Source: Myxococcales bacterium (lineage in GTDB: Bacteria; Myxococcota_A; Polyangia; GCA-2747355). From it: a stretch of 36,550 nucleotides of DNA. Each line of letters begins with the position of its first letter. Position 1 is the stretch's first letter. The notes below the pieces were generated by a model. It did no database searches and was not told the DNA's origin. It saw only the letters and a list, made by a program, of their open reading frames with translations. Below are positions 2,740-27,564 of this stretch, one piece after another. The position numbers and the translations under genes were made by a program. Location: the NCBI GenBank assembly GCA_020431405.1, contig JAGQIK010000164.1, positions 1 through 36,550 of the forward strand, in the 5' to 3' direction.

Positions 2740-4296
2740 CTAGGTTGTCGCGGAGGATTTTTTCGCGCCGGCCCTGACCAGGCGGGCCAAGAGCGCCGGC
2801 GCGTCGGGGCCGAGGGACGCCGGCTGGCAGCTTTGCAGCTCGAGGCCGGCGGGCGAGAAGAGGGCTCGCAAGGTCTCGGCGTCGAAGGGGGTGGTGCGGT
2901 AGGGGTTGTCGGGGCCCGCTTCGTGCACCTTGAGCAGCAGCATGCCTTCGTCGGCGAGCAGCTCGGCCACGCTGCGGGCGTAGCGCGGCTGGTCTGTGGG
3001 CGCCAGGCAGTGCAGGCAGCCGCGGTCGACGATGATCTCGAAGCGCGTGCCATCGATGGGGCACTCGGTGATGTCGCCGCGCAGCCACAGCACGCGCGAG
3101 GCTTGGTCGCGCTGGCGCGCGCGGGCGAGGGCGGCCGACGAGATGTCGAGGGCGACGGCCTGATAGCCGCGTCGCGCGGCCTCGATGGCGACGGTGCCCG
3201 TGCCGCTGCCCACGTCGAGCAGGCGCGCGGGCGGCGGCGTGCTGTCGAGCGCTTCGGCGATGTCGGCGTCGAGCGCGTCGGTCTGCCAGCTCGGTGGCGC
3301 GGCGTCGCTCGAGAAGAGCGCGTCCCACTCGGCGACGGTGGTCGCCGCGCCGTTGGTCGCCGCGCCGGTGGTCGCCGCGCCGGTTGTTGTCGTCGCGGCG
3401 CGGGATGGCAGCTCGGAGGCGATGTGCGCTGCGAGATCGGCGATGCGCTGGGCGGTGGGCGCGCCGCCCATCATGCGCTCGCGCGCGTGCGGCGCGTCGG
3501 CGACCTCGTAGCTCCAGCGCGGGTGGACCATCACGAAGCCATCGTCGGCGAGCTGCTGCAGGTTGCGCTGCACCGCGGGTGTGCTGCGCATGCGCTCGTT
3601 CATCGACGGACAGAGCACCACCGGCGCGCGGGTGGCGAGCGCGATGGCGGCGACGAGGCTCGAAAAGTCGCCGGCGGCGAGGCGCGAGAGCGTGGTGGCG
3701 CTGGCTGGCGCGATGATCATCAGATCAGCCCAGCGCGCGAGCTCGATGTGCGGTACCGAGCCGGGCTCGTCACGCTGCCACATCGAGCCGAGCAGCCGCT
3801 TGTGCGTCAGCACCTCGATGGCTTCTGCGGTGATGAAGCGCGCGGCGTCGTCGGTGGCGACGACCTGCACTTCGAAGCCGCGCGCGAGCAGCGCGCTGAC
3901 AAGCGACGGCGTGAACGCCGTGCGTACGGCGCCGCAGACGCCGAGCACCAGGCGCCGTGCGGCGGCGGGCTCGCTGGCGCTGTCGCTGGCGCGCTGCGGT
4001 CGCGCGGTGGCGAAGGGCTCGATGGCGCCCCAGGCGTGAAGCTGCTCGACGAGCTGCGACACGATGGCGGTGCCGCCGCCGGAGTCGAGCTCGAAGTGCT
4101 CGGCGACGTCCTGCTCGATCTCTTCGAGGGTGCAGGGGCGCGCGAGGGCCTCGAGGATCGTGCGCGCCAGCTCGGCGCTGGCGTCGTCGAGGCGACGCAC
4201 GGCGCCGTCGGCGCAGAGGATGGTGAGCTGATCGGCGCGATCGTAGAGCGCCGCGGCGCCGCTTCGCGCCCAGCGTTTGGGTTGGTCTTGGCTCAT
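2740..4296 (-). CDS. Three-domain protein: PqqD-like (RRE) domain, Dfp/EpiD-type flavoprotein, class I SAM methyltransferase
   Basis: The protein has 518 residues. I start at MSQDQPK (4296); an ATG 33 nt upstream lacks a ribosome site. Residues about 18-95 resemble PqqD-like peptide-binding domains (VRRLDDASAELARTILEALA, then TLEEIEQDVAEHFEL). Residues about 115-295 show the hallmarks of homo-oligomeric flavin-containing Cys decarboxylases such as Dfp/CoaC and EpiD: HIELARWAD with catalytic-type His183, PASATT (197-202) and CPSMNERM (229-236). An A/T/G-rich linker encoded by a 15 bp tandem repeat follows. Residues about 340-518 are a Rossmann methyltransferase with motif I LLDVGSGTG (359-367) and DRGCLHCLAP. 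Inference: the first domain recruits a peptide, the flavoprotein decarboxylates or dehydrates a C-terminal Cys or related group, and the last domain methylates. Alternatively it acts on a small molecule. I know no characterised protein with this architecture. Confidence 0.72.
   Translation of the reverse strand: MSQDQPKRWARSGAAALYDRADQLTILCADGAVRRLDDASAELARTILEALARPCTLEEIEQDVAEHFELDSGGGTAIVSQLVEQLHAWGAIEPFATARPQRASDSASEPAAARRLVLGVCGAVRTAFTPSLVSALLARGFEVQVVATDDAARFITAEAIEVLTHKRLLGSMWQRDEPGSVPHIELARWADLMIIAPASATTLSRLAAGDFSSLVAAIALATRAPVVLCPSMNERMRSTPAVQRNLQQLADDGFVMVHPRWSYEVADAPHARERMMGGAPTAQRIADLAAHIASELPSRAATTTTGAATTGAATNGAATTVAEWDALFSSDAAPPSWQTDALDADIAEALDSTPPPARLLDVGSGTGTVAIEAARRGYQAVALDISSAALARARQRDQASRVLWLRGDITECPIDGTRFEIIVDRGCLHCLAPTDQPRYARSVAELLADEGMLLLKVHEAGPDNPYRTTPFDAETLRALFSPAGLELQSCQPASLGPDAPALLARLVRAGAKKSSATT
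3337..3381 (-). repeat. 15 bp tandem repeat, three copies, in an interdomain linker
   Basis: Three consecutive 15 bp units (plus strand GGTGGTCGCCGCGCC, with one copy starting GTTGG) encode the ATTGA-type linker between the flavoprotein and methyltransferase domains. The copy number is a whole number of codons, so length changes would keep the frame. Confidence 0.75.
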
Positions 4297-4407: not shown

Positions 4408-4623
4408 TCAAACCACCAGGTCGGGCGCGTCCATTCCCGCGTCCGCGACTTGCGCCTCGGCGCCTTTGTCGAGCTGGCTGACGGTGTCCGGCTTGGTGTC
4501 GCTGTCGCCACAGGCTGTCATCAGGCCGGCGCCGCCGGTGAGCAGTGAGACGGCGAGGACGGCGGGCAGCAGCAGCTTGCGCTTCTTTTTCTTCTTGTCG
4601 GGTTTGTTTCCGGCGTCGTGCAT
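4408..4623 (-). CDS. Small lipoprotein-like peptide (71 residues)
   Basis: The start at 4623 is chosen because an AGGAGG lies 9 nt upstream; the ATG at 4653 has none. The N-terminus is very basic (DKKKKKRK) and is followed by a hydrophobic core and a lipobox-like LMTAC with Cys38, as in exported lipoproteins. The mature part would be only 34 residues, acidic and low in complexity, ending DAGMDAPDLVV. This resembles the spacer found after the lipid anchor in many myxobacterial lipoproteins, but no folded domain follows. It could be a free-standing mini-lipoprotein, a remnant of a longer gene, or a peptide substrate for its neighbours. It has no Cys near the C-terminus, which argues against being an EpiD-type substrate. 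Confidence 0.6.
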   Translation of the reverse strand: MHDAGNKPDKKKKKRKLLLPAVLAVSLLTGGAGLMTACGDSDTKPDTVSQLDKGAEAQVADAGMDAPDLVV

Positions 4624-4696
4624 GAGCGAGTGCCTCCTAGAGCAGGGGTTCATGCTCGCGCCGTACGTTCGTAAGTTCTAACAGTTACTTTCGATA

Positions 4697-5545
4697 CTAC
4701 GGAATGGCGCGGCCGATGACGCCGACGACGATGGGCGAGAACAGCATCACGGCGGGGTCGAGCTTCTGGCCGTCGAGCTCGTCGATGCAGCGCTGGTAGT
4801 CCTCGCGCGACAGCTCGCCTTCGGCGACGAGGCTGGGGCCGTGGCCGCGCACGAACTGCTCGACCCAGCGGTAGACGGGCGAGCCGGGCGCGCCGGCCTT
4901 CTGGTGCGGGTAGACGCCTTCGCAGTGAAAGCCGCTCTTGTGCAGCGCGCCGGCGAGCGTGCCGGCCACCCATAGATCGCCGCCGGCGTTGTGGTACCAG
5001 CTGCGGAAGGCTTCGATGACGCGGTCGAAGGCGGGTGCGCTGGGGAAGATGCGCACGCCGTCGTGGTTGTAGTCGATGACGGCGAGCGCGCCGCCGGAGG
5101 CGAGCAAGGTGCGCAGGCGCACGAGCAGCGTCTCGACCTCGGCGTAGAAGGACAGCACCCAGCGGGCGAAGATCAGGTCGAACTTGCCGGGGACAACGGC
5201 GCCGCGGTTTGGGTCGTTGCTCGACGAGAGCGCGATGGTGTGGATGTCGCCGTCGACCACGCGCACGTTTGCGAGGCGTTGCTGCTCGACGAGCGCGCGG
5301 CTGGCGCGGGCGTAGACGGCGTTGCGCTCGATGGCGACGACCTCGCCGGCGGGGCCGACGCGGCGGGCGAGGCGCGGCAAGCTGAGGCCGATGCCGCAGC
5401 CGATCTCGAGCACGCGGGCGCCGGGGGCGATCTCGAGGCGGTCGAGGAAGGCTTCGGTCTCGTCCTCCCAGACCTCGTCTTGAAAGCGCAGCCGCTCGAG
5501 CTCGTCGGGGGCTGCGCCTAGCAGGTAATCGTGAGCGTTGTTCAT
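4697..5545 (-). CDS. Class I SAM-dependent methyltransferase
   Basis: The protein has 282 residues from ATG 5545 (MNNAHDYL). An ATG at 5593 would add 16 residues but lies inside the operator region of imuA. Neither start has a clear ribosome site. Motif I is VLEIGCGIGLSLPRL, followed by an acidic motif (VVAIERN) and post-motif VVDGDIHTI, then FDLIFARWVLSFY and a strand with GGALAVIDYNHDG. This is a standard seven-strand SAM methyltransferase fold; the substrate cannot be told from sequence. It is transcribed away from imuA across a roughly 100 bp gap holding two LexA-type boxes, so damage-induced expression is possible. Downstream are the small lipoprotein and the three-domain protein. Confidence 0.8.
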   Translation of the reverse strand: MNNAHDYLLGAAPDELERLRFQDEVWEDETEAFLDRLEIAPGARVLEIGCGIGLSLPRLARRVGPAGEVVAIERNAVYARASRALVEQQRLANVRVVDGDIHTIALSSSNDPNRGAVVPGKFDLIFARWVLSFYAEVETLLVRLRTLLASGGALAVIDYNHDGVRIFPSAPAFDRVIEAFRSWYHNAGGDLWVAGTLAGALHKSGFHCEGVYPHQKAGAPGSPVYRWVEQFVRGHGPSLVAEGELSREDYQRCIDELDGQKLDPAVMLFSPIVVGVIGRAIP

Positions 5546-5585
5546 CGCCCGCGGTTCTACCAAGTGTCGTGGCGCCTCAGCGAAC

Positions 5586-5602
5586 ATGAACATTTGTTCA
5601 GT
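5586..5602 (+). promoter_or_regulatory. LexA-box-like operator 1 (GAAC-N4-GTTC)
   Basis: GAACATTTGTTC at 5588-5599 is a near-palindrome of the GAAC-N4-GTTC kind. Extended to ATGAACATTTGTTCAGT it also fits the Myxococcus LexA consensus as I remember it (CTRHAMRYBYGTTCAGS) at 15 of 17 positions. It lies 44 bp upstream of imuA and 40 bp upstream of the divergent methyltransferase start, so it could control both. Confidence 0.55.
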
Positions 5603-5632
5603 TGCGGGTAGATCTCGGCAGGGAGATCGTTA

Positions 5633-5652
5633 TACTGATCACATGTTCAGTA
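5633..5652 (+). promoter_or_regulatory. LexA-box-like operator 2 (TACTG-N10-CAGTA) over the imuA start
   Basis: TACTG, ten bases, CAGTA matches both outer halves of the enterobacterial SOS box exactly, and it contains the imuA ATG (5643-5645). A -10-like TATACT at 5631-5636 overlaps its left edge, so bound repressor would cover the promoter and start site. No good -35 is visible. A start of transcription about 7 nt after this -10 would fall on or next to the ATG, suggesting a leaderless or nearly leaderless imuA mRNA. Confidence 0.6.
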
Positions 5653-6518
5653 TCGCCAGGGATGGAGGCGCCGCCGAGGCGCGCAAAGGGCTCGCAAAGG
5701 TCATCTCTGCTTCCACAGCGACAAAGCTGCGACCAGCCGCTGACGTCGAGCGCCCGAGCGAGGTGCTCGCGACGGGGCTGGCCAAGCTCGACGCGCTGTT
5801 GCCCGACGGCGGCGTTCCGCGCGGGCAGCTGAGCGAGATCAGCGGCGGGCGTTCGTGCGGCAAGCGCGCGCTGGCCTGCGCGCTGGTGGCGCGCACGCTG
5901 CGACAGCACGAACGCGCGGTGTGGATCGACGGCAGCGGCGGCTTCTATCCGCTGTTGCCGCTCGAGTTCGGCGTGCCGCTCGATCGGCTGGTGGTGGTGC
6001 GGGTGCCGGTGGAGAAGGGCAGGATGTCTGGCGGCGCGCGTGGGCGGCGCCGGTCGCGCTCGGCGAGCACGCGCGGGAGCAAGCAGGTGCGCTGTTTCCC
6101 GAGCGCGCGCGCCGAGTCGCTCAACCACTGCCCGCCGGCGCTCAAAGCGGCAGACATGTTGATGCAGGCCGGCAGCGCCTTGACCCTCTGCATCGTCGAT
6201 CTACCGGCGCGCACGACGATCTCGCCGCGGCTGTTAGCGCGCCTGCGCCTCGGCGCCGAGACGAGCGGCGCGGCGGTGCTGTTCATCACCGAGCAAACAA
6301 CGCTGGCCGGCGGGCGCACTGCAGGCGGCGGCTACAATCGACGGCTCGAGTCGCTCGGCACGTTCATCAGCTTGCAGCTGTCGATCACGCGCGACACGAC
6401 GACCGCCGCTGGCGCCATCGACGTGCACATCGCCAAGAGCAAGCGCGGCTGCATGGAGCAGCACGCGATCGTGACCCTCGATGAGCCGCACAGCATGCGC
6501 CTGGATACCACGGTTTGA
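5643..6518 (+). CDS. imuA: ImuA, RecA/SulA-related accessory factor of mutagenic repair
   Basis: The protein has 291 residues. ImuA works with ImuB and DnaE2 in damage-induced translesion synthesis. The sequence shows a RecA-like core: VLATGLAKLDALLPDGGVPRG leads into a degenerate Walker A (GGRSCGKRAL, with Arg where RecA has Thr), then AVWIDGSGGFYPLLPLEFG and LCIVDLPARTTISPRLLARL. The context immediately upstream of imuB and dnaE2 supports the name. The start at 5643 (MFSIARDGG) lacks a well-placed ribosome site (GGGAG is 17 nt away) and is covered by a LexA-like box, fitting leaderless translation. The last 38 bp overlap imuB, suggesting translational coupling. The degenerate P-loop is seen in other ImuA proteins. 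Confidence 0.85.
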   Translation: MFSIARDGGAAEARKGLAKVISASTATKLRPAADVERPSEVLATGLAKLDALLPDGGVPRGQLSEISGGRSCGKRALACALVARTLRQHERAVWIDGSGGFYPLLPLEFGVPLDRLVVVRVPVEKGRMSGGARGRRRSRSASTRGSKQVRCFPSARAESLNHCPPALKAADMLMQAGSALTLCIVDLPARTTISPRLLARLRLGAETSGAAVLFITEQTTLAGGRTAGGGYNRRLESLGTFISLQLSITRDTTTAAGAIDVHIAKSKRGCMEQHAIVTLDEPHSMRLDTTV

Positions 6519-8082
6519 GCTGAGGGCGCGGCTTTCCGAGCAGCCCGAGCTCGGTGGTCAGGCGCTGATCATCGCCGACGCCAGCTCGACGCGCTCGGTG
6601 GTGGTTGGCGCGTCGGACGAGGCGCGCGAGCAGGGCGTGGCGGTCGGCATGTCGATGGTGACGGCGCGCGCGCTGTGTCCCGAGGCGTTGATCATCCCGC
6701 CCGACGCGGCTTTCGTGCGCGAGGTCAGCGAGCGCGTGCTGCGCGCGCTGTATCGCTTCGCGCCGGTGGTGGGACGCGACGGTCACGGCGCGTTTTTCCT
6801 CGACCTGCGTGGGCTCGAGCGGCTGCACCCGGACGAGCAGGCGCTGGCGGCGGCGATCGCGCGCGCCACCGCCGAGCTGTGCTTGCCTTCGCTGGTGGCC
6901 ATCGCCGACGAGCCGATCACGGCTTGGATCGCGTCGCGCTGTCTGGAGCGCTCTGTGGTGATCACGATCCCGCCCGGCGAAGACGAGGCGTTTCTGGCGC
7001 AGCTGCCGATGAGCGCGCTGCCGATGCCCGACGAGATCGGGCGGCTGTGTCGCGTGCTGGGGCTCGAAAAGGTCGCCGATCTGCAGCGGCTGCCACCGGG
7101 CGCGCTGTGCCGGCGCTTCGGGCGCGTCGGCGAGGAGGTCGAGCTGCGCGCCAAGGCGCGCGCGCACGAGGTCTACAGCGTCGAGATCCCCGTCGACCCC
7201 GAGCGCGTCGAGCTGCCGCTCGACGATCCTACCGACGACTACGAGGTGCTGCTCTTTCTGCACAAGAGCGTGCTCGACCGGCTGCTCAAGCAGGTGGCGG
7301 CGCGGCGTCGCGCGCTGGCGGCGCTGTCGATCGAGCTCGTGCTCTCGGACAGCGATCGCAGCGTGGTGACGCACGTGCTGCGGCCGGCGCGGCCGACGCT
7401 CGACGGGCGCGCGATGCTCGAGCTGGTGCGGCTGTGGCTCGAGCGCGGGCCGCTACCGGCGACGAGCGATGAAGACGGGTCGGCAGCAAATGCGAATGCC
7501 GCGGACGACTGCTACGCGGCCAACGCGATGGTCGACAGCATCGGCATGACGGCCATCGAGGTGGCGGTGGCCGAGGCGCGGCAGCTCGCGTTGTTCGAGC
7601 GCAACGCGGTGCTCGACGACGACGCCATGGCGGCGGCCATCGCGCGGCTGGTCGCGGCCTTCGGCAGCGACTCGGTGGTGCGGCCGCAGCTGACGTCGAG
7701 CTACCGGCCCGAGACGCGCATTCAGTGGGTGCCCTGCGTCGGCGCGAGCGCGAAAGCGCAGGGCGATAGCGCAGCCGTTGGCGCTGGCGCTGGCGCTGGC
7801 GATGGCGATGTCCCGCCGGTGTTGTCGCTGCTCGCCGAGGCGACGCCGGTGACGCTCGATCTGACGCGCCGCTGGCTGGCCTTCGGCGAGCACGAGCAGC
7901 GCGAGCTGGTGCAGATCGACGGGCCGTTTCACCTCGAAGGCCAGTGGTGGGATCAGGGCTTTCGGCGGCGCTACCTGCTGGTGCGCACCGATCTGGGCGA
8001 GGTCTGCCTGCTCTATCAGGAGGCGGCGCTGCGTTTTGGTGGCGCGCTGGGCGAGTGGTACCTGCAAGGCTTTCTCGACTGA
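6481..8082 (+). CDS. imuB: ImuB, Y-family polymerase-like protein of the mutasome
   Basis: The protein has 533 residues from ATG 6481, overlapping imuA by 38 bp. It has the layout of a Y-family (DinB/UmuC) polymerase: N-terminal ACAWIPRFELRARL, VVGASDEAREQGVAVGMSMVTAR, and FFLDLRGLERL. Acidic catalytic residues of active family members are not conserved at the N-terminus (WIPRFEL where DinB has a D-D type motif), as is known for ImuB. ImuB acts as an adaptor joining DnaE2 to the sliding clamp. A clamp-binding pentapeptide QLALF is present around residue 368. The A/G-rich insert GAGAGAGDGD near residue 435 is low complexity. A C-terminal region with RRRYLLVRTDLGEVCLLYQ follows. Start and frame are unambiguous. 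Confidence 0.88.
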   Translation: MSRTACAWIPRFELRARLSEQPELGGQALIIADASSTRSVVVGASDEAREQGVAVGMSMVTARALCPEALIIPPDAAFVREVSERVLRALYRFAPVVGRDGHGAFFLDLRGLERLHPDEQALAAAIARATAELCLPSLVAIADEPITAWIASRCLERSVVITIPPGEDEAFLAQLPMSALPMPDEIGRLCRVLGLEKVADLQRLPPGALCRRFGRVGEEVELRAKARAHEVYSVEIPVDPERVELPLDDPTDDYEVLLFLHKSVLDRLLKQVAARRRALAALSIELVLSDSDRSVVTHVLRPARPTLDGRAMLELVRLWLERGPLPATSDEDGSAANANAADDCYAANAMVDSIGMTAIEVAVAEARQLALFERNAVLDDDAMAAAIARLVAAFGSDSVVRPQLTSSYRPETRIQWVPCVGASAKAQGDSAAVGAGAGAGDGDVPPVLSLLAEATPVTLDLTRRWLAFGEHEQRELVQIDGPFHLEGQWWDQGFRRRYLLVRTDLGEVCLLYQEAALRFGGALGEWYLQGFLD

Positions 8083-8101
8083 ATTGGCAATGAGCAATGA
8101 G

Positions 8102-8280
8102 GAACCAGTCAATGCGAATACATGAACGACGGAATCGAAGAACGCGAAGTACGAATGGGTGGCTCGCGACACCTTCGCTGTACGACGTGCGCCCGCGTCG
8201 CAAGCATTCTGAATTCGCGTTCCTTGTTCCGTCGTTCATGTATTCAAGCTCGTTGTTGCGAATTCACAATTGACCAGTTC
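8102..8280. repeat. 179 bp imperfect inverted-repeat element between imuB and dnaE2
   Basis: Two perfect 19 bp arms, GAATACATGAACGACGGAA at 8116-8134 and its reverse complement at 8227-8245, are extended inward by matching AACGCGAA (8141-8148 and 8214-8221) and GAATG (8153-8157 and 8205-8209). Outward, GAACCAGTCAAT (8102-8113) matches the complement of 8269-8280 at 10 of 12 bases. The whole could fold into one long stem with a loop of about 47 nt. It is visibly richer in A and T than its neighbours and codes for nothing convincing. A MITE- or REP-like insertion is the likeliest reading. Its right end covers the dnaE2 start codon. It fills the gap between imuB and dnaE2. Confidence 0.65.
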
Positions 8281-11200
8281 TTTGTATGCGGAGCTTCACT
8301 GTCGCTCCAACTTCAGCTTCCTGCGCGGCGCGTCGCATCCGCGCGAGCTGGTGGCGCAGGCGGCGGAGCTGGGGCTCGAGACGCTGGCGCTCGTCGACCT
8401 GAGCGGCTTCTATGGCGTGGTGCACGCTTGGGAGGCGCGCGGCGACATCGCCGAGGCGCTCGACAAGCAGCAGCTCACCATTGTCGATCCAAGAGAGATA
8501 CCACGCGAGGCTCGGCGCGTGGCCGACGCGCGCAACTGGCCTGGCGCGACGCTGCCGCCCGAGCTTTCGGGCGCACACCGCGAGGAGCGCGACGAGCGCG
8601 ACGACGACGTCAGCGAAGGCGATGGCTTCGTGCTGTCCAGCGTGCGCTGTCTGCCGCGGCTGCTCTACGGCAGCGAGCTCGAGATCCGCAGCGAGCGCGC
8701 CGAGAGTGCGATGGCGCGCGCGCGGCGAATGGCGCGGCCCGCGGGCGAGCGCGAGGCGCCGCCGCCCGACGACGCGCTGGTTATGCTGGCGCGCGATCGC
8801 GACGGCTACGCGTTGATCTCGCAGCTGGTCAGCCGCGGGCGGCTGCGCGTGGAGAAGGGCGGCATCGAGCTCTATCGCGACGAGCTGCTCGAGCTCGCCG
8901 CCGGCAGCGGCGGGGAGGGCGTGATCGTGCTCGCCGGCGGGCCGCGCAGCCGCCTGCTGCGACGCCTGCGCGACGGCGACGAGGCCGGCGCGCGGCGCGA
9001 GCTGGGCGAGCTGCGCGAAGTCTTCGGCGACGCGCTGTATGTCGAGCTGACGCGCCACTTGCGGCCAGGCGACGTCGAGCGCTCGCTGGCGCTGCGCGCG
9101 CTGGCGGACGCGTCGGGGGTCGAGGCCATCGCCAGCAACGACGTCTTCTTTCACACGCGCGAGCGCAAGATGCTGCACGACGTGCTGACCTGCATCCGCG
9201 AGGGCCTCACGCTGCGCGAAGCGGGGCGCGCGCTGCTGCCCAACGCCGAGCGCGCGCTCAAGACCGGGCGCGAGATGCTGGCGCTCTTTCGCGACATGCC
9301 CGACGTGGTCCATCGCACCGTCGAGGCGGCGAGCCGCGTGACGTTCACCCTCGACGAGCTGTCGTACTGCTATCCGGCCGAGGCGGTGCCGCCGGGACAC
9401 AGCGCCGACTCGTTTCTCGCCGAGCTCGCACGGCGCGGGCTCGAGCAGCGCCTCGGGCGCCGCCGCGCGCGCGACCTGCTGCCGCAGCTTCGCCGCGAGC
9501 TCGCGATCATCGGCGAGTTGCGCTACGCCGGCTATTTTCTGACCATGTGGGAGGTGGTGCAGTACTGCCGCCAGCACGGGATCCTCTGTCAGGGCCGTGG
9601 CTCGGCGGCCAACTCGCTGGTCTGCTTCTCCACCGGCATCACCTCGGTCTCGCCCGATCAGATCGACATGCTCTTCGAGCGCTTCTTGTCGGTAGAGCGC
9701 AAGGAGCCGCCCGACATCGATCTCGACATCGAGCACGACCGGCGCGAGGAGGTGCTGCAGTACGTCTACAAGAAGTACGGGCGCGACCGCGCGGCGATGG
9801 TGGCGACGGTGATCCGCTATCGCGCGCGCTCGGCGATCCGCGACGTGGGCAAGACGCTGGGGCTCAGCGAGCAGACCGTGCTGCGCATCAGCAAGTTCAC
9901 CACGCACGGCTGGGAGAAACCCGAGGACGGCTCGCCCGATCCGCACGAGCGCGCCGCGCTGGCGGCGGGGCTCGATCCCAAGGGTCGCACCTGGCGCCAG
10001 CTGGTCGGTCTCGCCGCCGAGCTGCAGAGCTTTCCGCGCCACCTGTCGATCCACACCGGCGGCTTCATGCTCTCGAGCCGGCCGGTGGCCGACATCGTGC
10101 CCGTGGAGAACGGCCGCATGCCCGACCGCACGGTGATCCAGTGGGACAAGGACGACATCGACTCGCTCAAGATCTTCAAGGTCGACCTGCTCGGGCTCGG
10201 CATGCTCAACGTCATCGCGCGCGCCTTCCGGCTGATCAAAGCGCACCGCGGCGTCGAGCTCGAGCTTCACAGCGTGCCGCAGGACGACCGCGCCACCTAC
10301 GAGATGATCCAGCGCGCCGACACGCTCGGCGTCTTTCAGATCGAGTCGCGCGCGCAGATGGGCATGCTGCCGCGGCTCAAGCCGGCCTGCTTCTACGACC
10401 TCGTGATCGAGGTCGCGCTGGTGCGTCCAGGACCGATCCAGGGCGGCATGGTGCACCCCTACCTGCGGCGCCGGCGCGGCGAGGAGCGCGTCGACTATCC
10501 GCACCCCAAGCTGCGCCCGATCCTCGAGCGCACGCTGGGCGTGCCGATCTTTCAAGAGCAGGTGATGAAGATGGCCATCGAGGTCGGCGGCTACTCGCCG
10601 GGCGAGGCCGATCAGCTGCGCCGCGACATGGCGGCCTGGCGCCGCAGCGGCAAGATGGAGCGCCACCAGGCGCGGCTGTTTCGCAAGATGTGCGAGAGCG
10701 GCATCGACGAGGAGTTCGCCGAGCGCATCGTGCGCCAGATCGAAGGCTTTGGCTCCTACGGCTTTCCCGAGTCACACGCGGCGGCCTTCGCGCACCTGGT
10801 CTACGTCTCGGCCTACATCAAGTGCCACTACGCGCCGGAGTTTGCTGCGGCGCTGTGCAACGCGCAGCCGATGGGCTTCTATCACGTCTCGTCGATCGTC
10901 GCCGACGCGCACCGCCACGGCATCCCGATCCGGCCGGTGTGCGTGCAGCGCAGCGAGTACGAGGCGACGCTCGAGGAGGTCGACGAGCACCTGCCGCCGC
11001 CGCCCGCGGACAGCGCGCGCTACAAGCGACGTACGCTGGCGCTGCGCATGGGGCTGCGCTCGGTGCGCGGGCTCAACGAGGCGGCCGCGCGCGCGGTCGT
11101 CGCCGAGCGGCAGCGCGGCGGACCGTTTGCCAGCATCGCTGACCTAGCGCGCCGCTGCGCGGTGGTGCGCGGCGATGACGACGAGGCCAAGCCGCTGCGG

Positions 11201-11770
11201 CGTCGTGACGTGGCACAGCTCGCTTACGCCGGCGCCTTCGGCGCGCTGGTCGAGCGGCGCGGTGCGATCTGGCAGGCGGTGGCGCTCGGCGGCAGCGACC
11301 TGGTGGCCAACGTGCTCGACGAAAAGCCGATGCACTTCGACCCGCTGCCTCGCAGCGAGCGCGTGCGCATGGACTACTGGTACTCGGAGAGCTTTCTCGA
11401 GGACCACCCGATGAAGCTCTATCGCTCGCGGCTGCGCGGGCGCGGCGTGACGCGCTCGCTCGAGCTCAAACGCGTACCGCCGGGGCGGCTGGTCAAGGTC
11501 GCTGGCGTGGTGATCGTGAGGCAGCGCCCGAGCGGTCCCGGCGGCGTGGTGTTCATGGCGCTCGAGGACGAGACGGGGCTGGTCGACATCGTGCTGCGGC
11601 CGGAGATCTTCGAGCGCAACCGCGTGCTGATCTGTATGGCCGAGATGCTGCTCATCGAAGGGCAGCTGCAGGCCGACGGCGACGCGCGCAGCGTGATGGC
11701 TCATCGGCTCGAGACGCTGGCGCGCGAGGGCGACGGCGCCTACGGCGTTCGCTCGCACGACTTTCATTGA
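8270..11770 (+). CDS. dnaE2: DnaE2 (ImuC), error-prone DNA polymerase III alpha subunit
   Basis: The protein has 1166 residues, slightly long for the family. It is the catalytic polymerase of the ImuA-ImuB-DnaE2 translesion system. The N-terminal PHP domain begins YAELHCRSNFSFLRGASHP. The polymerase core has CQGRGSAANSLVCF (about residue 442) and the catalytic aspartates in PPDIDLDIEHDRREEV (about 480). Helix-hairpin-helix and C-terminal OB-fold parts (VKVAGVVIVRQRPSGPGG) follow. The frame is closed upstream by TGA at 8210 and contains no ATG or GTG before YAELH, so the start must be TTG at 8270 (or TTG 8282), with no ribosome site. Both codons lie at the end of the inverted-repeat element. 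An extra stretch of about 60 charged residues (roughly 65-125) interrupts the PHP domain. Confidence 0.9.
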   Translation: MTSSLYAELHCRSNFSFLRGASHPRELVAQAAELGLETLALVDLSGFYGVVHAWEARGDIAEALDKQQLTIVDPREIPREARRVADARNWPGATLPPELSGAHREERDERDDDVSEGDGFVLSSVRCLPRLLYGSELEIRSERAESAMARARRMARPAGEREAPPPDDALVMLARDRDGYALISQLVSRGRLRVEKGGIELYRDELLELAAGSGGEGVIVLAGGPRSRLLRRLRDGDEAGARRELGELREVFGDALYVELTRHLRPGDVERSLALRALADASGVEAIASNDVFFHTRERKMLHDVLTCIREGLTLREAGRALLPNAERALKTGREMLALFRDMPDVVHRTVEAASRVTFTLDELSYCYPAEAVPPGHSADSFLAELARRGLEQRLGRRRARDLLPQLRRELAIIGELRYAGYFLTMWEVVQYCRQHGILCQGRGSAANSLVCFSTGITSVSPDQIDMLFERFLSVERKEPPDIDLDIEHDRREEVLQYVYKKYGRDRAAMVATVIRYRARSAIRDVGKTLGLSEQTVLRISKFTTHGWEKPEDGSPDPHERAALAAGLDPKGRTWRQLVGLAAELQSFPRHLSIHTGGFMLSSRPVADIVPVENGRMPDRTVIQWDKDDIDSLKIFKVDLLGLGMLNVIARAFRLIKAHRGVELELHSVPQDDRATYEMIQRADTLGVFQIESRAQMGMLPRLKPACFYDLVIEVALVRPGPIQGGMVHPYLRRRRGEERVDYPHPKLRPILERTLGVPIFQEQVMKMAIEVGGYSPGEADQLRRDMAAWRRSGKMERHQARLFRKMCESGIDEEFAERIVRQIEGFGSYGFPESHAAAFAHLVYVSAYIKCHYAPEFAAALCNAQPMGFYHVSSIVADAHRHGIPIRPVCVQRSEYEATLEEVDEHLPPPPADSARYKRRTLALRMGLRSVRGLNEAAARAVVAERQRGGPFASIADLARRCAVVRGDDDEAKPLRRRDVAQLAYAGAFGALVERRGAIWQAVALGGSDLVANVLDEKPMHFDPLPRSERVRMDYWYSESFLEDHPMKLYRSRLRGRGVTRSLELKRVPPGRLVKVAGVVIVRQRPSGPGGVVFMALEDETGLVDIVLRPEIFERNRVLICMAEMLLIEGQLQADGDARSVMAHRLETLAREGDGAYGVRSHDFH

Positions 11771-13644: not shown

Positions 13645-14412
13645 CTAGTGCGCCTTCTTGGCGGGCGCCTTCTTGGCGGGCGCCTTCTTGGCAGGTGCCT
13701 TGGCCTTCGCCGCAGGCGCTGCCGAGCCGCTGCCTGGCGCCGCCGAAGCGCTGCCAGCCACGCTCCCCGTCCCAGCGGCCGTTCCGCCGCCAGCCGGCTC
13801 ACTCGTTCCAGCACCCGTTCCGGTTCCAGGATCAGCGCCGGTTCCAGCAGCCGTGCCGGTGCCAGCAGCAGCGCCAGTACCCGCGGCCGCGCCAGTGCCC
13901 GCGGCTGCACCGGTGCCAGCGGCTGCGCCCGTGCCAGCAGCCGTGCCTGCAGCCGGCTTGGGGGCTTTCTTCACTTCGGGCGCCTTGGGCAGCACCGGCG
14001 GGTTGGCCCCGCTGCGGAAGCGCTTGATGCCCACCGTGACGCTGCCGGTGCTCTCTTCTTGGATGTCCTGGTGCTTGCGCAACGTGAAGTTGGCCTGGTT
14101 TTGGTCGATACGGTCGCGCGATGTCAGGTCGATGAAGGTGAAGGCGAAAAAGATCACCAGGAATATCAGCGACCCGAAGAAGACCAGGCTCAGGAAACGC
14201 GTGTCGTAGCGCAGGTGCATGAAGTAGCCGACGACGAAGCCGGCCTTGATCACGGCCACGAGCATCGCGATGTAGATCGCGTTGGGGCCGAGATCGAGCA
14301 GCGAGACGCCGACGGTGGCGCCCGTCAGCACCAAAAGCGCGCCGTAGACCTGAAAGTAGATCTTCAGCGGGAGGACATGGGGCTCGGAGCTGTCGTGTGC
14401 GTGTGCACTCAT
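13645..14412 (-). CDS. Cytochrome c oxidase subunit IV with long low-complexity tail
   Basis: The protein has 255 residues; the first 100 match the small bacterial subunit IV family (PLKIYFQVYGALLVLTGATV, AMLVAVIKAGFVVGYFMHL, a third span FLSLVFFGSLIFLVIFFAF). These three membrane helices make a minor subunit of the caa3 oxidase. The remaining 150 residues are unusual. A linker leads to six-residue repeats of the AAAGTG kind (about 154-195), then an A/G/S/P-rich part, and finally AKKAP repeats ending in KKAH, which give a strongly basic end. The tail is longer than the functional part. The gene follows subunit III by 31 bp in the same operon. Confidence 0.82.
   Translation of the reverse strand: MSAHAHDSSEPHVLPLKIYFQVYGALLVLTGATVGVSLLDLGPNAIYIAMLVAVIKAGFVVGYFMHLRYDTRFLSLVFFGSLIFLVIFFAFTFIDLTSRDRIDQNQANFTLRKHQDIQEESTGSVTVGIKRFRSGANPPVLPKAPEVKKAPKPAAGTAAGTGAAAGTGAAAGTGAAAGTGAAAGTGTAAGTGADPGTGTGAGTSEPAGGGTAAGTGSVAGSASAAPGSGSAAPAAKAKAPAKKAPAKKAPAKKAH
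13828..13953 (-). repeat. 18 bp repeats encoding AAAGTG units in subunit IV tail
   Basis: The segment codes for residues about 154-195 of oxidase subunit IV as repeated Ala-Ala-Ala-Gly-Thr-Gly hexapeptides; on the plus strand the unit reads like GCCAGTGCCCGCGGCTGC with variations. Such in-frame minisatellites are prone to change in copy number. Confidence 0.7.
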
Positions 14413-14443
14413 CGTATTTCTCTATCCTTCGACTTACCGCTCG

Positions 14444-15091
14444 CTATTTAACGAGGTAGAGCAGCGGGAAGAGGAAGATCCAGATCAGGTCGACCAGGTG
14501 CCAGTACAGCCCAGCGTTCTCGACCGGTGTGAAGTACGCAGAGCTAAAGTCGCCGCGTCGCGCGCGCATCAGGATCCAGGCGAGCACGATGATTCCTACC
14601 AGCACGTGCAGACCGTGCAGGCCAGTCATCGCGAAGTAGAGGCTGAAGAAGATGTGCGGGCTGCCGGCGATGCCGGTAGCGGAGAAGCTGCGCGCCGTCA
14701 CCAGGCCGACGTGGATCTTGTGCGAGTACTCGAAGTACTTCACGACCAGGAAGCCGCACGCGAACAAGATCGTCAGCGCCAGCATCAGCACGGTTTGCTT
14801 CTGATTGTTGGTCTGCGCGGCGCGCACACCGAGGGCCATCGTCAGGCTGCTGGTGATCAGGATCACCGTGTTGATGGCGCCCATCTTGACGTCGAGGTAG
14901 GCGTGAGCCGCCAGGAACGTCTCGGGGTAGAGGAAACGCAGCACGCCGTAGGCGACGAAGATGCCGCCGAAGAAGAGCACTTCCTGCGCGAGGAAGAGCC
15001 ACATGCCGAGCTTGCTCGCCGAAGCTTGCTGCTCCGCCGAGTGAAAGTGGTGCTGTAGGAACTTCGGGTGGTCCCCGTGTGCAGCGCTCAT
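14444..15091 (-). CDS. ctaE: Cytochrome c oxidase subunit III
   Basis: The protein has 215 residues with five predicted membrane helices ([58 protein letters not shown], a Leu/Val-rich helix after [20 protein letters not shown], and a last one with [17 protein letters not shown]). This is the compact form without the first two helices of mitochondrial COX3, usual in bacterial caa3 oxidases. The family signatures EVLFFGG, KYFEY, GLHGLHV and [18 protein letters not shown] are intact. It stabilises the catalytic core. It sits between subunit I (38 bp upstream) and subunit IV. Confidence 0.92.
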
Positions 15092-15129
15092 CGTCTATCC
15101 AATCATCCGCGCGGTAGAAGCGGCGGTGG

Positions 15130-17112
<1,983 letters not shown>

Positions 17113-17131
17113 ATCTGATCTCGCCTTACAG

Positions 17132-18103
17132 TTACTTCAGCGACTTGATGTAGTCGATCAGCGCGTTCATCTGCTTGGGTGTGATGCGCCCCTTGAAGGT
17201 CGGCATCACCGGCCCGAAGCCCTTAACCACCTTGGCGTTGGGATTCATGATCGACTCGCGAATGTACTCGTCGTCGATCTTGACCTTGCTGCCGTCGGCG
17301 AGCGTCTCGATGGTGCCGTACTTGCCAGCCAGCCACGGCCCCGTCCCCTTGACGCCCTTCTTGATGCTGTGACAGGCGGGGCAGCCGCGCATCTTGAAGA
17401 TCTTGGGCCCCAGCTCCTTGGGCGACAGGTTGTCCATGCCGCAGCCCGACTTGGTCCACTTGTCGTATTCAGCGCGCGTGACGACCTTGATCTTGGAGTA
17501 CATCGTCGAGTGCTTGGTGCCGCAGTACTCGGTGCAGAAGACGTCGAACGTTCCGAGCTTGGTCGCGTTGAACCACAGCACCGTGTAGCGGTTGGGCAGC
17601 GCGTCCTTCTTCACGCGGAAGGCGGGCACGTAGAAGCTGTGCAGCACGTCGATGGACGACATGGTCAGCTTCACCGGCTCGTTGATCGGCACGCGTAGCT
17701 CGTCGACGCCGTCGCAGCCATGCCTGGGCAGCGCGTAGTTCCACTGCCAGCGCTGCGCGGTGACGCGCACGTCGATGGCGCCCTCGGGCGCGACGTTGAG
17801 GCTCATCCAGTCGCGGAAGCCCCACATGAACATCACCAGCAGCAGCACCGACGGGATCACGCTCCACGCGATCTCGAGCCGCGTGTTGCCCTCGATGTCC
17901 GACGTGCGATCGTGTGCACCTCGGCGGCGGTACTTGATGACGAAGTAGATCATCACGCCGACGATCAGCACGAAGAAGAAGACGCACAGCCAGTAGATGA
18001 AGTAGAAAATGCCGTCGACGTTCTCGGCCTGCGTGGCCGCCGTCTCCGGCATCCAGAACGTTCGTTTGGCGGCTCCCGCCAGCAGTGTCTGCATATAGCT
18101 CAT
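17132..18103 (-). CDS. ctaC: Cytochrome c oxidase subunit II fused to cytochrome c (caa3 type)
   Basis: The protein has 323 residues. Two membrane helices (about 31-57 and 78-97) precede the periplasmic cupredoxin domain with a complete CuA site: His155, Cys190, Glu192, Cys194, His198 and Met201. A C-terminal class I cytochrome c domain follows, with heme motif CPACH (241-245) and a later Met in PVMPTF as probable axial ligand. Electrons from ACIII would reach CuA through this heme. There is no obvious cleavable signal peptide or lipobox at the N-terminus. Its ATG overlaps the TGA of the upstream SCO gene by 4 bp (ATGA), tying it to the act operon. Confidence 0.94.
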
Positions 18104-19065
18104 GAGCGCGTCCTAGCGTGCTGTTTGCCGATCAGCGCCCGCGCTTCGGGCGCGTGGCGCTTTCGCTCTCTCAGCTTGAGCACGATGATCAGAATCGCGA
18201 GGATGATGATCGTGAGCACGCCGCCGATGCGCATGAAACCGAACGCGAAGGCGGTGTAGCTTCCCGAGTTAGGGTCGTAGTGAAAGCAGCTGAGGATGAT
18301 GCGGTCGACCGTCGATCCGATCTTGCCGCGCGAGGCATCCATCAGCGCGAAGCGCACGTGCTGCGGCTGGTAGACCAGGCCGTAGAGGTAGCGCGAGATC
18401 TTGCCGTCCGGTGCGATGACGTAGATCGCCGCCGTGTGTGCGAACTGGTCCTCGGAGGCGAGGTACTTGTATTCGTAGCCCACGCTGGCGGCGAGCTTGG
18501 CGACGTTTTCGAGCCGCTTGCCGCCGTCGCTAGCCGGCTGGCGCTTGCCGACGAGGAACGCCCAGTCCGCCTCGCGCTTGACGCCGCGCTTGGCCAGCGC
18601 CTTGTTCAGCGTCTCGAGGTAGTTCTTGCGCTTCGCGGCGGCGACCTCGTAGGAATCGCGCGGGTCGAAGCTGACCGTGACCATGCGGTACTTGTCGCCT
18701 GCCACCCACTCGAGCTGCTTGAGCGTGTCGGTGATCGCGTTGAGCTGCAGGCTGCAGAGGTTCTCGCAGCGGTAGTAGTTCAACGACAGGATCATCGGTT
18801 TGCCGCCGGCGACGTACTGGCGCAGGGTGACGCGCTTGCCGCGGTGATCGATGAAGGCCGCGTCGAGATCGATACGCTTGCCGAGGCGCTCCTTGATCCC
18901 CACGCCCACGAGCTGCTTGGGCAGCGCGTTGCCACCGCCGGCGCTCGGCGCTGGCGGCATGTCTCGCCCCCACGCCGAGGCCGCGCCGAGCAGCGTGCCG
19001 AGGAGCATCGTCACGACAAATGTCGCGAGGCGCCGCGTCGCGAGTATGTACAGCCGCTTCGACAC
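18100..19065 (-). CDS. SCO1/SenC-type copper chaperone with C-terminal membrane span
   Basis: The protein has 321 residues from GTG 19065, whose G is shared with the TAG of the gene before. SCO proteins are thioredoxin-fold copper chaperones that load the CuA site. An N-terminal signal or anchor helix, the copper motif C-x3-C (Cys100 ENL Cys104) and the third ligand His in FAHTAAIYVIAPDG are present. Unlike typical SCO proteins it has a second hydrophobic helix near the C-terminus (GFMRIGGVLTIIILAILIIV) followed by a basic tail, preceded by SCFHYDPNSGSYTAFAFG. It lies directly upstream of subunit II, its expected client. It is clearly different from the SCO gene at 27749-28483. Confidence 0.88.
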   Translation of the reverse strand: MSKRLYILATRRLATFVVTMLLGTLLGAASAWGRDMPPAPSAGGGNALPKQLVGVGIKERLGKRIDLDAAFIDHRGKRVTLRQYVAGGKPMILSLNYYRCENLCSLQLNAITDTLKQLEWVAGDKYRMVTVSFDPRDSYEVAAAKRKNYLETLNKALAKRGVKREADWAFLVGKRQPASDGGKRLENVAKLAASVGYEYKYLASEDQFAHTAAIYVIAPDGKISRYLYGLVYQPQHVRFALMDASRGKIGSTVDRIILSCFHYDPNSGSYTAFAFGFMRIGGVLTIIILAILIIVLKLRERKRHAPEARALIGKQHARTRS

Positions 19066-19475
19066 TACTTCTTCGGCTCCGCGGGCTTCTCCGGCGGCTT
19101 CGCCGGTGCTTTTGTCGGTGCGGGCTTGTCGTCGGGAATATCGGCCGGCAGCAGCAGCGTCGGCGTGCGCATCAGCATGTCTTGCGCCATGCGGATCGGG
19201 ATGCGGTAGAGGTTCTTCTTCTTGCTGACGACCCCGTAGCCCGCCGCCGCGCGCTTGTCGGCTTGCGCCGCCTTGGCCAGCGCTGGCTCGATGCGCGCGA
19301 GCTGCTTCTTCTGCATCTCGCGCGTCGTCGCGTGGTTGAACTCTTGCCAGACCATGATCGTCACCACGATGACGACCGCGCACATGGCGCCGACCCAGAC
19401 GAAGAGCTTGCCCGACGGCATGACGTCGGGCTCGACGGGAACGTCGGGGTGCTTCTTGAACTGCTGATCGCTCAT
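19065..19475 (-). CDS. Small single-span membrane protein of the act-cox operon
   Basis: The protein has 136 residues from ATG 19475 (MSDQQFKKHPDVP), with GGCGGGAG upstream. One membrane helix (about 24-46, FVWVGAMCAVVIVVTIMVW) is followed by a helical segment, then GYGVVSKKKNLYRIPIRMAQDMLM and a Lys/Pro/Ala-rich end. With the N-terminus inside, most of it would be periplasmic. It stands between actF (14 bp gap) and the SCO gene (1 bp overlap), so it is made with the complex. It may be an accessory or assembly subunit of ACIII or the ACIII-caa3 supercomplex. No heme, Fe-S or copper motif is seen. I cannot name the family. Confidence 0.7.
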   Translation of the reverse strand: MSDQQFKKHPDVPVEPDVMPSGKLFVWVGAMCAVVIVVTIMVWQEFNHATTREMQKKQLARIEPALAKAAQADKRAAAGYGVVSKKKNLYRIPIRMAQDMLMRTPTLLLPADIPDDKPAPTKAPAKPPEKPAEPKK

Positions 19476-19489
19476 TCGTCCACTCCCGC

Positions 19490-20704
19490 CTAGATATTCT
19501 TGAAGGCGAGCGACTCCTTGAGCCGCGGGTCGCCTGCCGGGATGAGCTTGTGGCGCGCCAGGCCGTAGCCGAAGACGGCGAGGAACACGCCGCCGACGCC
19601 GACGAAGGTCGTCAGGTCGACGATGGTGAAGTGCGGTCCGTGGTGGTGGTACGTCGGCATGATCAGCCAGTACATGTCGAAGTAGTGCACCGTCAGGACC
19701 ATCAGCGCGCCGATGATCAGCGTCGGTTTGAAGCGCTTGATCGTGCGGTTGATCATGAAGAAGAACGGCACGGCGAAGTGGCCCACGCCCTGGAAGATGC
19801 TCATGCCGAGCCACGCGCCGCCGCGGTGTTTGAACCACACCGTCTCTTCAGGGATGTTGCCGTACCAGATCAGCATGTACTGCGAGAACGCGATGTAGGC
19901 CCAGAACACCGTGAAGGCGAAGATCAGCTTGCCGAGGTCGTGATAGTGCTCGGACGTGATCACGTCCTTGAGCACGCCGCTGCGCTGCAGCAGCACGCCC
20001 ATCAAGCTGATGAACGAGAAGATCGCCAGCGTGGTGCCCGCGAAGTAATAAGGACCGAAGATCGTCGAGTACCAGTGCGGGTCGAGCGACATGATCCAGT
20101 CGAAGGCGGCGAAGGTCAGCGTCAGCGCGAAGATGACGATCGACGGGCCCGCGACGATCTGCATGCGCTTGGTGGCAGCAGCCTCTTTGCTCTCGTCCTG
20201 CGCCGTGGACTTCTTCCAGAAGTACCAGGCCAGCACGAACCAGAGGATGAAGTACGCGCCGGCGCGCGTGTAGAAACCCGTCGTGTTGAGGTACGCCGCC
20301 TTGTCTTGCAGCACCAAGTCCTTTGCGACGGCTTCAGCGTGAGACCAGTGATAGAGATCGTGTAGCCCCAACGCGATGGGTATGAAGAGCACCGCGAATG
20401 CCGGCAGCGCCAGCATGGCGTGCTCGGCGATGCGCCGCACCACCACGCTCCAGCCGGCGCGCGCGGCGAACTGGACGATGACGAAGAACAGGCCGCCCAG
20501 CGCGAGGCTGAGCCAGTAGGCGTACGCCACGAGGTACGAGAAGTAGAACTGCGGGTGCAGCTTGCCGCCCTTCCAGGCGATGCCGGCCGACGCGCCCAGA
20601 CCGATGACGGCCAGCGCGACGCCGATCAGCGGCAGCTTGCGCCACAGGCTGTTCTGCGGCAGCTCGATGTCTTGAGCTGTGATCTTTTTGGGTGAGTGGC
20701 TCAC
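19490..20704 (-). CDS. actF: ActF, integral membrane subunit of Alternative Complex III
   Basis: The protein has 404 residues. I prefer GTG 20704 because it overlaps the actE TGA (GTGA) and has AAGGGG 8 nt upstream; GTG 20713 would add three residues. About ten membrane helices are expected. ActF is related to ActC/NrfD but shorter. Recognisable parts are HPQFYFSYLVAYAYWLSLALGG, AGPSIVIFALTLTFAAFDWIMSLDPHWYST, SQYMLIWYGNIPEET and WYFWKKS. In known ACIII structures this subunit sits beside ActC in the membrane and may form a proton path. Order actA to actF with short or overlapping junctions shows one operon. Confidence 0.9.
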   Translation of the reverse strand: MSHSPKKITAQDIELPQNSLWRKLPLIGVALAVIGLGASAGIAWKGGKLHPQFYFSYLVAYAYWLSLALGGLFFVIVQFAARAGWSVVVRRIAEHAMLALPAFAVLFIPIALGLHDLYHWSHAEAVAKDLVLQDKAAYLNTTGFYTRAGAYFILWFVLAWYFWKKSTAQDESKEAAATKRMQIVAGPSIVIFALTLTFAAFDWIMSLDPHWYSTIFGPYYFAGTTLAIFSFISLMGVLLQRSGVLKDVITSEHYHDLGKLIFAFTVFWAYIAFSQYMLIWYGNIPEETVWFKHRGGAWLGMSIFQGVGHFAVPFFFMINRTIKRFKPTLIIGALMVLTVHYFDMYWLIMPTYHHHGPHFTIVDLTTFVGVGGVFLAVFGYGLARHKLIPAGDPRLKESLAFKNI

Positions 20705-21330
20705 TTGCTCCACCCCTTGCGCTGGCGCACCGCCGAGGGAATGCGCTCGATGGGCTGCGATCCAGCGATCTGCAGCACGCGGACGTAGGCGGCGATGGCC
20801 CAGCGGTCATGCACGGGGATCTGCACCGCGTACGAGGGCATGTTGCGGATGCCCTTGGTGATGACCTGGAAGAAGTGTCCGATGGGCATCTTGCGCAGCC
20901 GCGTCTCGAGATACGAGGTGGGCTGGATGACGATGCCCTTGGTCACCACCGGCGCGTTCTTGCCGGTGCCTGTGCGGCCGTGGCAGGGACGACAGTAGAT
21001 GTTGTAGCGCTCTTTGCCGCGCTTGAGCAGGTTCTCGGTGAGCTTGACGGGCAGCTTCTTGGTGAGCTGGTTTCCGACCATGCCGCGATAGAGGCGGTCG
21101 TTTTCGCGCAGCTCGCCGATGGCGATGGTGCCCTTGACCTGCGGGCGCATGCCGCGCCCGTCCTTCCAGAACTTCGAGCCTTCCTGCGACTCGATGTACT
21201 TCTGGTTGTCCATGTTGGGGTTGAGGTGAATCGGCGGCTCGATCGCGAGGTCGCCACGGCAACCCGCAGCGAGCAGCACTGACGCGAGCAGCACTGACGC
21301 GAGCAAGAGCAGCGAGTGGGTTCGGCGCAT
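20701..21330 (-). CDS. actE: ActE, monoheme cytochrome c lipoprotein of ACIII
   Basis: The protein has 209 residues. A lipoprotein signal with LLAAGC (Cys24) tethers it to the outer face of the membrane. A single class I heme site CRPCH (113-117) and a probable Met ligand in IRNMPSY follow; this is the usual ActE layout, handing electrons onward to the oxidase. The signal peptide contains a doubled ASVLL-type segment caused by a perfect 15 bp tandem repeat. The start ATG 21330 lies 2 bp after the actD stop and its TGA overlaps the actF start. Confidence 0.92.
   Translation of the reverse strand: MRRTHSLLLLASVLLASVLLAAGCRGDLAIEPPIHLNPNMDNQKYIESQEGSKFWKDGRGMRPQVKGTIAIGELRENDRLYRGMVGNQLTKKLPVKLTENLLKRGKERYNIYCRPCHGRTGTGKNAPVVTKGIVIQPTSYLETRLRKMPIGHFFQVITKGIRNMPSYAVQIPVHDRWAIAAYVRVLQIAGSQPIERIPSAVRQRKGWSK
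21271..21300 (-). repeat. Perfect 15 bp tandem duplication in the actE signal peptide
   Basis: GAGCAGCACTGACGC occurs twice in a row on the plus strand. In the protein it doubles five residues of the hydrophobic core (ASVLLASVLLA), lengthening the signal without changing frame. Complete identity of both copies suggests a recent event. Confidence 0.85.
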
Positions 21331-21332
21331 GG

Positions 21333-21881
21333 TTATTCCTCCACCAGCTCGACGTGGGTGGCGCCGATGTCTTTGAGGAACTGCACCGTCTTGACCTCGT
21401 CGAAGCGCGGATCAGCCGACTCGATGGAGATGAAGAACTTGTCGTCGGTGACGCGCTCGAAGCGCTCCGAGCGGAACAGCGAGTGGTACAGCTGCGGCAG
21501 CTTGTTGAAGTGCAGCATGCCGAAGAAGCAGGCGAAGGCCGAGAAGAGCACCATCAGCTCGAAGCACACCGGCACGAAGGCCTGCCACGAGAAGAGCGGC
21601 TTGCCGCTGATGATGAACGGGTAGTCGACCGCGTTGGTCCACCACTGCAAGAGCAGTCCAGCCGATGCGCCGGTGAGGCCCACCACGAACACGACGTAGC
21701 CGAGCTTCGACGGGGGGATGCCCATCGCGTCCTCGATCCCGTGGATCGGGAACGGCGAGTGCGCGTCCCACTTGCGATACTTGGCGTCGCGCACCTTCTC
21801 GCAGGCCGACACCAGGCTCGCAGCGCCGTCGAACTCGGCGAGCGCGCCGAAGGACTTGCTGGGAGAGTTGGAGCTCGCCAT
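21333..21881 (-). CDS. actD: ActD, DUF3341 membrane subunit of ACIII
   Basis: The protein has 182 residues with two membrane helices (about 59-80 and 101-123) and a C-terminal ferredoxin-like cytoplasmic part. Family features are the N-terminal LAEFDGAASLVSACEKVRDA, PFPIHGIEDAMGIPPSKLGY and the end FLKDIGATHVELVEE. ActD is a structural subunit without cofactors that contacts ActC and ActF. Its ATG follows the actC TAA immediately (TAAATG), and actE starts 2 bp after its stop. Confidence 0.92.
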   Translation of the reverse strand: MASSNSPSKSFGALAEFDGAASLVSACEKVRDAKYRKWDAHSPFPIHGIEDAMGIPPSKLGYVVFVVGLTGASAGLLLQWWTNAVDYPFIISGKPLFSWQAFVPVCFELMVLFSAFACFFGMLHFNKLPQLYHSLFRSERFERVTDDKFFISIESADPRFDEVKTVQFLKDIGATHVELVEE

Positions 21882-23393
<1,512 letters not shown>

Positions 23394-23396
23394 CGG

Positions 23397-27379: not shown

Positions 27380-27456
27380 GTAAAGTCCCCTACGTGTCTA
27401 ACTGCCACCGACTGTGCTGTCTTGCGCGGCCGGTGTTTCGGATCACTGACGGCACC

Positions 27457-27473
27457 CACCGCGGGACGCGGTG
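27457..27473. other. Hairpin in the actA leader, proximal
   Basis: CACCGCG-GGA-CGCGGTG is a perfect 7 bp stem with a 3 nt loop, about 78 nt upstream of the actA start. No T-run follows on the minus strand. It may be a protein-binding palindrome or a leader RNA hairpin. Confidence 0.4.
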
Positions 27474-27564
27474 AGCAACGCAGTGGGTATCTACCGGGCA
27501 CTGACCGACGGAAGCGTGATGCTACCGATACCGCGACTTACAACCTATTCCCTCGCCGCACCGA

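Follow-up and report, generated by a model that had tools for sequence, protein, structure and literature searches.

An RRE-flavoprotein-methyltransferase fusion and an adjacent precursor-like peptide as a candidate RiPP cassette of one myxobacterial class

Can a single polypeptide recruit a ribosomally made peptide, oxidize it, and methylate it? The question is raised by a fusion gene in a 36,550-nucleotide stretch of Myxococcales DNA (hereafter, the window), which an earlier note had read as a single-chain peptide-tailoring enzyme that recruits, decarboxylates, and methylates its substrate. The fusion and its parts are as follows, with the source of each assignment in brackets.

2740..4296 (-), fusion protein of 518 aa, RRE - HFCD flavoprotein - SAM methyltransferase (Pfam, family alignment, orthologs)
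4012..4275 (-), PqqD-like RRE domain, residues about 8-95 (hhalign, AF2, Foldseek)
3427..3960 (-), HFCD-type flavoprotein domain, residues about 113-290 (Pfam, alignment, PDB profile search)
3748-3750 (-), codon of His183 (conserved in the family)
3598-3600 (-), codon of Asn233 of PSMN (conserved in the family)
3337..3405 (-), Ala/Thr-rich linker, longer than in relatives, with low pLDDT at 301-316 (family alignment)
2767..3336 (-), SAM methyltransferase, TPMT/thiol-methyltransferase-like, residues about 321-510 (Pfam, alignment, PDB relatives)

The 518-aa frame starts at the ATG at 4296; an alternative ATG at 4329 would give 529 aa. Codon-position G+C on the minus strand (0.72/0.55/0.92) is normal for a coding frame and, together with homology, rules out a 522-aa plus-strand ORF across the same DNA, which is a shadow ORF. 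Orthologs with 36-42% identity occur in about 30 genomes, all within one myxobacterial class, and a search of 318 genomes of this class returned ~27 further proteins or fragments of identical domain order and ~40% identity from four other families. Matches in 379 sampled genomes of the phylum were confined to that class, which suggests that the family is limited to it. The fusion is missing from the three other genomes sampled from the source organism's order. Scanning genome contigs with the fusion alignment gave results dominated by CoaBC and recovered only three family members. Among open-licence papers, a scope that leaves novelty unproven, we found no report of the RRE-HFCD-methyltransferase architecture.

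We next consider what each domain is likely to do. The Pfam PqqD model (PF05402) scores the fusion at only E = 0.005, under the cut-off, and as a single-sequence score is detected in 2 of the 21 members of the family alignment; a PDB search using the N-terminal profile alone gave nothing useful. When 25 N-terminal domains were aligned by hhalign with 30 PqqD-family domains drawn from the fusion's own class, the two profiles matched over 85 columns with 92% probability (E = 6.5e-7), and 20 column shuffles and a reversed profile all stayed at or below 0.5%. AlphaFold2 modeled the N-terminal domain from four sequences (pLDDT 83) as strands followed by three helices. Each of the first 15 Foldseek matches of this model in the PDB is an RRE domain or a RiPP enzyme that contains one; the best matches include TbiB1 with leader peptide, ThcOx, MibB, TbtB, NisB, PqqD, TruD, and PbtF. 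Despite the sub-cut-off Pfam score, therefore, the profile-profile match and the predicted fold establish the N-terminal domain as a RiPP recognition element, as far as a predicted fold can.

The central domain matches Pfam Flavoprotein (PF02441) at 1.4e-26, and its His (PHI), PASATT, and PSMN motifs are invariant across 21 family sequences. By family profile, the closest solved relatives are TvaF (6jls; 6.8e-38), then CoaBC and SpaF; CypD and CypM are also among the fusion's solved relatives. The best NCBIfam flavoprotein score is to CoaBC (8.5e-40), under the cut-off (TIGR00521, 137 bits vs 219.7) and far better than that of the CypD model (31 bits vs a cut-off of 215). The Cys of the CoaC ACG motif is Ala in 24 of 24 aligned fusions; it is kept in the separate CoaBC that the source genome encodes and in six other CoaBC proteins. 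Loss of this Cys halts the HFCD reaction at the enethiol, and PDB entry 1mvn, AtHAL3a C175S with pantothenoylaminoethenethiol, is consistent with such a halt. Since the His and Asn are kept while the reducing Cys is replaced by Ala, oxidative (enethiol) chemistry would be expected of this domain from its residues. In Phycisphaerae, two flavoproteins (L092 and L125) carry PSMNETM and RRNLAQL.DDGF segments that look more like the fusion's HFCD domain than like the usual CoaC.

The C-terminal domain matches Methyltransf_25 (2.7e-16) and TPMT (9.6e-7) in Pfam. SAM motif I (LLDVGSGTGTVA) is intact and conserved in the family, and WD...W and DRGCLH motifs are present. The TPMT model matches all 21 family members, and the solved relatives include thiol and halide methyltransferases, so sulfur is a plausible methylation target. 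The earlier note's description of the protein thus holds throughout: one unbroken three-domain frame on the minus strand (2740-4296), a PqqD-like N terminus (hhalign, AF2 fold, and Foldseek RRE matches), an EpiD/Dfp-type flavoprotein with its His, PASATT, and PSMN motifs (Pfam and PDB relatives), and a methyltransferase with a family-conserved motif I. The domain order proved conserved among class orthologs. Two findings that would have told against its peptide reading, a missing profile match to PqqD and homologs placed in CoA pathways, did not turn up: the profile-profile match exists, the homologs do not lie in CoA loci, and CoaBC is separate.

If the enzyme acts on a peptide, a precursor gene might be expected beside it. 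The earlier note had asked for a survey of conserved small ORFs nearby, and one lies directly upstream.

4408..4623 (-), small precursor-like ORF of 71 aa; an alternative ATG at 4653 gives 81 aa
4549..4581 (-), leader motif RKLLLPAVLAV, which fits L-x-[LIV]-P-[AT]-x-L-[AST]-[VI] (aligned peptides)
4510..4521 (-), lipobox-like MTAC with the sole Cys of the 71-aa peptide (by eye)
4633..4638 (-), Shine-Dalgarno-like AGGAGG preceding the peptide start at 4623

The peptide has a basic start, a hydrophobic segment (RKLLLPAVLAVSLLTGGAGLMTAC), the lipobox-like Cys, and an Asp/Ala-rich tail ending DAPDLVV. An equivalent peptide adjoins the fusion in 20 of the 29 loci with enough flank to evaluate, on the same strand and upstream, 36-111 bases off or overlapping. 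In G304, where a leader-alignment search found it, the peptide is directly downstream of the enzyme gene; three loci (L068, L069, and L074) have tandem peptide pairs. Nine evaluable orthologs, including all five genomes of family f22, lack an adjacent peptide, and none was found in L054, L059, L064, L065, L070, L071, L073, and L076. The aligned peptides share the leader consensus, located in the signal-peptide region, with an invariant Pro and a nearly invariant Leu. Judged by eye, a hydrophobic segment and a Cys point to a putative lipobox-type signal peptide, with two SPI-like exceptions. Between families the tails are unrelated: f17 and f30 carry Cys-rich modules, f10 and the window tails rich in Asp and Ala. 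No clear signature of selection emerged when substitutions were counted in the Nannocystaceae-like peptides.

When leader profiles were built with one family left out, a true peptide of that family ranked first each time. With a profile trained without its family, the window peptide came first at E = 3.1e-5, and the next of 293 ORFs scored 0.03; when f10 was held out, two of its peptides came at the top and the remaining f10 peptides scored weakly. Searching the whole class with the peptide profile gave matches at roughly 1e-5 or lower for 19 of the 30 genomes with a fusion and for none of the remaining 288; this count is partly in-sample, most matches having belonged to the training set, and its p-value is therefore not independent. 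Two cassettes that had not gone into the profiles were nevertheless recovered, that of G304 and that of G063, in which a truncated fusion comes after the peptide where the contig ends.

Copies of the peptide also occur away from the enzyme (G105, G110, and G116). Two orphan paralogs of Nannocystaceae type, at L212 5354-5750 (+) and L213 about 5358-5760 (-), lie far from a fusion gene and carry the leader and the Cys-rich module. A TANNNT element 6-7 bases before the peptide start (L055, L060-L063, L066, L067, L069, L074, L212, and L213) suggests leaderless transcription of the peptide genes. Two further small Cys-rich peptides with a similar leader do not sit beside the enzyme: one at L248 (G042:C1430; RRLKLPTTLVVVVLG...) and one at L078 1-147 (-) (G040:C51; SLRIPAALAFT...CQVLCIPQGG). 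These are perhaps in-trans substrates or a separate peptide family.

The small peptide is the enzyme's only neighbor conserved across families. A larger conserved gene cluster is ruled out, the other neighbors being lineage-specific (nuo-like in f22, nusG/tuf-like in g57, and hisZ/purA-like in f10). In the window, a second SAM methyltransferase gene at 4697 to 5545 or 5593 (-) lies upstream of the peptide gene; we do not count it as a cassette member, as it has no counterpart beside the fusion in other genomes. Divergent from the fusion, RecA-like (ImuA/SulA-type), Y-family polymerase, and DnaE2-like genes stand in a row at 5541-11770 (+); this is an ImuA-ImuB-DnaE2 mutagenesis cassette, with an inverted repeat (GAATACATGAACGACGGAA ... 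TTCCGTCGTTCATGTATTC) at about 8117-8247 between the ImuB-like and DnaE2-like genes. The region 13645-28483 (-) encodes cytochrome oxidase subunits, SCO-like proteins, NrfD, and subunits of Fe-S and multihaem cytochrome type, a set that fits alternative complex III together with a terminal oxidase.

Which residue of the peptide could the flavoprotein act on? In the textbook HFCD reaction, the substrate ends in Cys. Beside methyltransferase-fused members, the window included, no peptide does so; those of the window and f10 have no Cys but the lipobox-like one, which leaves these members without the classical HFCD substrate. A C-terminal Cys is found only in the peptides of two relatives that have RRE-HFCD and no methyltransferase, L079 (G211), 9646-10775 (-), and L081 (G212:C79), about 9330-10400 (+). 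Both peptides keep the leader (RLYLPPAFALTVLTG and RLHLPPAIAFTVLTG, respectively), lack the lipobox, and end ...SGAAFVGAGCC and ...SGAIFMGAGCC, respectively. The enzyme frame of G212:C79 is interrupted by a frameshift, which may be an assembly error or decay. A third relative, in G040, likewise keeps RRE-HFCD without the methyltransferase. Of the earlier single-chain tailoring reading, then, the RRE, the HFCD domain, the architecture, and the peptide gene stand; decarboxylation and methylation of the peptide are so far unsupported. The single Cys of the window peptide is that of the lipobox and is not C-terminal.

These observations allow several accounts of what the enzyme does. Its substrate could be a small molecule, coenzyme A or a pantetheine-like thiol, with the small lipoprotein merely an operon partner; the NCBIfam preference for CoaBC, sub-cut-off as it is, over CypD and the nine orthologs without an adjacent peptide would fit. 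We consider this unlikely given the RRE fold, the absence of the CoaC Cys in every aligned fusion, the separate CoaBC of the source genome, and a leader motif that is common to several families and linked to the enzyme. Membership of the CoA pathway itself is rejected, given the loss of the reducing Cys and a CoaBC encoded elsewhere in the genome. Alternatively, the maturase might work on the segment that precedes and includes the lipobox-like Cys: cleavage behind this Cys would leave it C-terminal and yield a linaridin-like hydrophobic peptide whose ends are decarboxylated and methylated as by CypD and CypM. Both of those enzymes are among the solved relatives, the window and f10 peptides contain no other Cys, and every methyltransferase-fused member examined has this Cys in its peptide; however, the residues around it fit a lipobox, the tail beyond it is kept and is Cys-rich in several families, and no protease gene is conserved, which together make this account quite improbable. 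Least probable of all is that only the methyltransferase works and the flavin domain, without catalytic activity, binds the signal peptide as a chaperone or regulator: most candidate substrates lack a C-terminal Cys and the HFCD-fold protein Hal3 has a regulatory role, but the His and Asn and the motifs around them do not vary among 21 sequences and three relatives retain RRE-HFCD without the methyltransferase.

We favor, with moderate confidence, a two-gene RiPP cassette in which the fusion is the maturase and the small peptide its precursor, on account of the RRE fold, the HFCD residues, the conserved peptide, the held-out leader profiles, and the relatives whose peptides end in GAGCC. Counting against it, the peptides of methyltransferase-fused members lack a C-terminal Cys, no protease or transporter is conserved near the fusion, the peptide tails look like ordinary myxobacterial lipoprotein linkers, single-sequence PqqD scores are sub-cut-off, and nine orthologs have no adjacent peptide. 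From the observed domain architecture, active-site residues, peptide linkage, and shared leader motif, we propose the following mechanism. In the cytosol, the RRE would bind the precursor at its start, through the motif R/K-x-L-x-[LIV]-P-[AT]-x-L-[AST]-[VI] that lies in the signal-peptide region. The FMN-binding HFCD domain would then oxidize the RRE-bound peptide, in a reaction that should stop at the oxidized enethiol stage as in EpiD and TvaF. The thiol/halide-type methyltransferase would next cap a reactive group, perhaps a thiol, on the same peptide. The modified peptide would be exported and, in most members, become a diacylglyceryl lipoprotein via the lipobox Cys.

How does this proposed cassette compare with known systems? 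TvaF is the decarboxylase of thioviridamide, acting on peptidyl-cysteine. Like TvaF, the best solved relative, SpaF, EpiD, and MrsD share with the fusion the fold, the His and Asn, and the lack of a CoaC-type Cys; unlike it, all four are single-domain RiPP-pathway decarboxylases without RRE or methyltransferase that act on a C-terminal Cys. CoaC of CoaBC resembles the fusion in its HFCD domain (about 30-40% identity) and PxMN motif, whereas the fusion has no CoaB domain, has Ala for the ACG Cys, and adds an RRE. Linaridins (cypemycin CypD and CypM) also combine decarboxylase and methyltransferase on one peptide, but as separate proteins with a different precursor ending in Cys, and the fusion misses the CypD cut-off (31 vs 215 bits). 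RRE fusions to tailoring enzymes are catalogued by RRE-Finder (PMC7470986, PMC12710340), and the main text of these papers mentions no flavoprotein or decarboxylase. Lipoprotein-RiPP hybrids made by MNIO enzymes (DAG-RiPPs; DybA, NedA) were described in 2025 by authors who expect that non-MNIO hybrids may exist (PMC12636315). There, as would be the case here, a precursor with a lipoprotein signal is modified in the cytosol before export; the DybH subfamily of MNIO enzymes, however, reads a C-terminal motif, in contrast to the N-terminal motif and RRE-HFCD-methyltransferase enzyme of our system. No MNIO (DUF692) maturase is present among the neighbors scanned in the window.

The cassette thus probably yields RiPP-lipoprotein hybrids through a non-MNIO enzyme, and we regard the RRE-HFCD-methyltransferase system as a candidate RiPP class. 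More tentatively, it is possible that this new class comprises the first non-MNIO RiPP-lipoprotein hybrids, in which the signal peptide doubles as the RRE leader and a single polypeptide oxidizes (HFCD) and methylates the precursor before lipidation. The cassette raises the questions of whether a signal peptide can act as an RRE leader and how an HFCD enzyme might act on a substrate that does not end in Cys, and its two genes are compact enough to be expressed whole in E. coli. If the proposal is true, RiPP biology would gain a single-chain recruit-oxidize-methylate maturase, and lipoprotein-RiPP hybrids, now described for MNIO enzymes, would extend to an unrelated enzyme.
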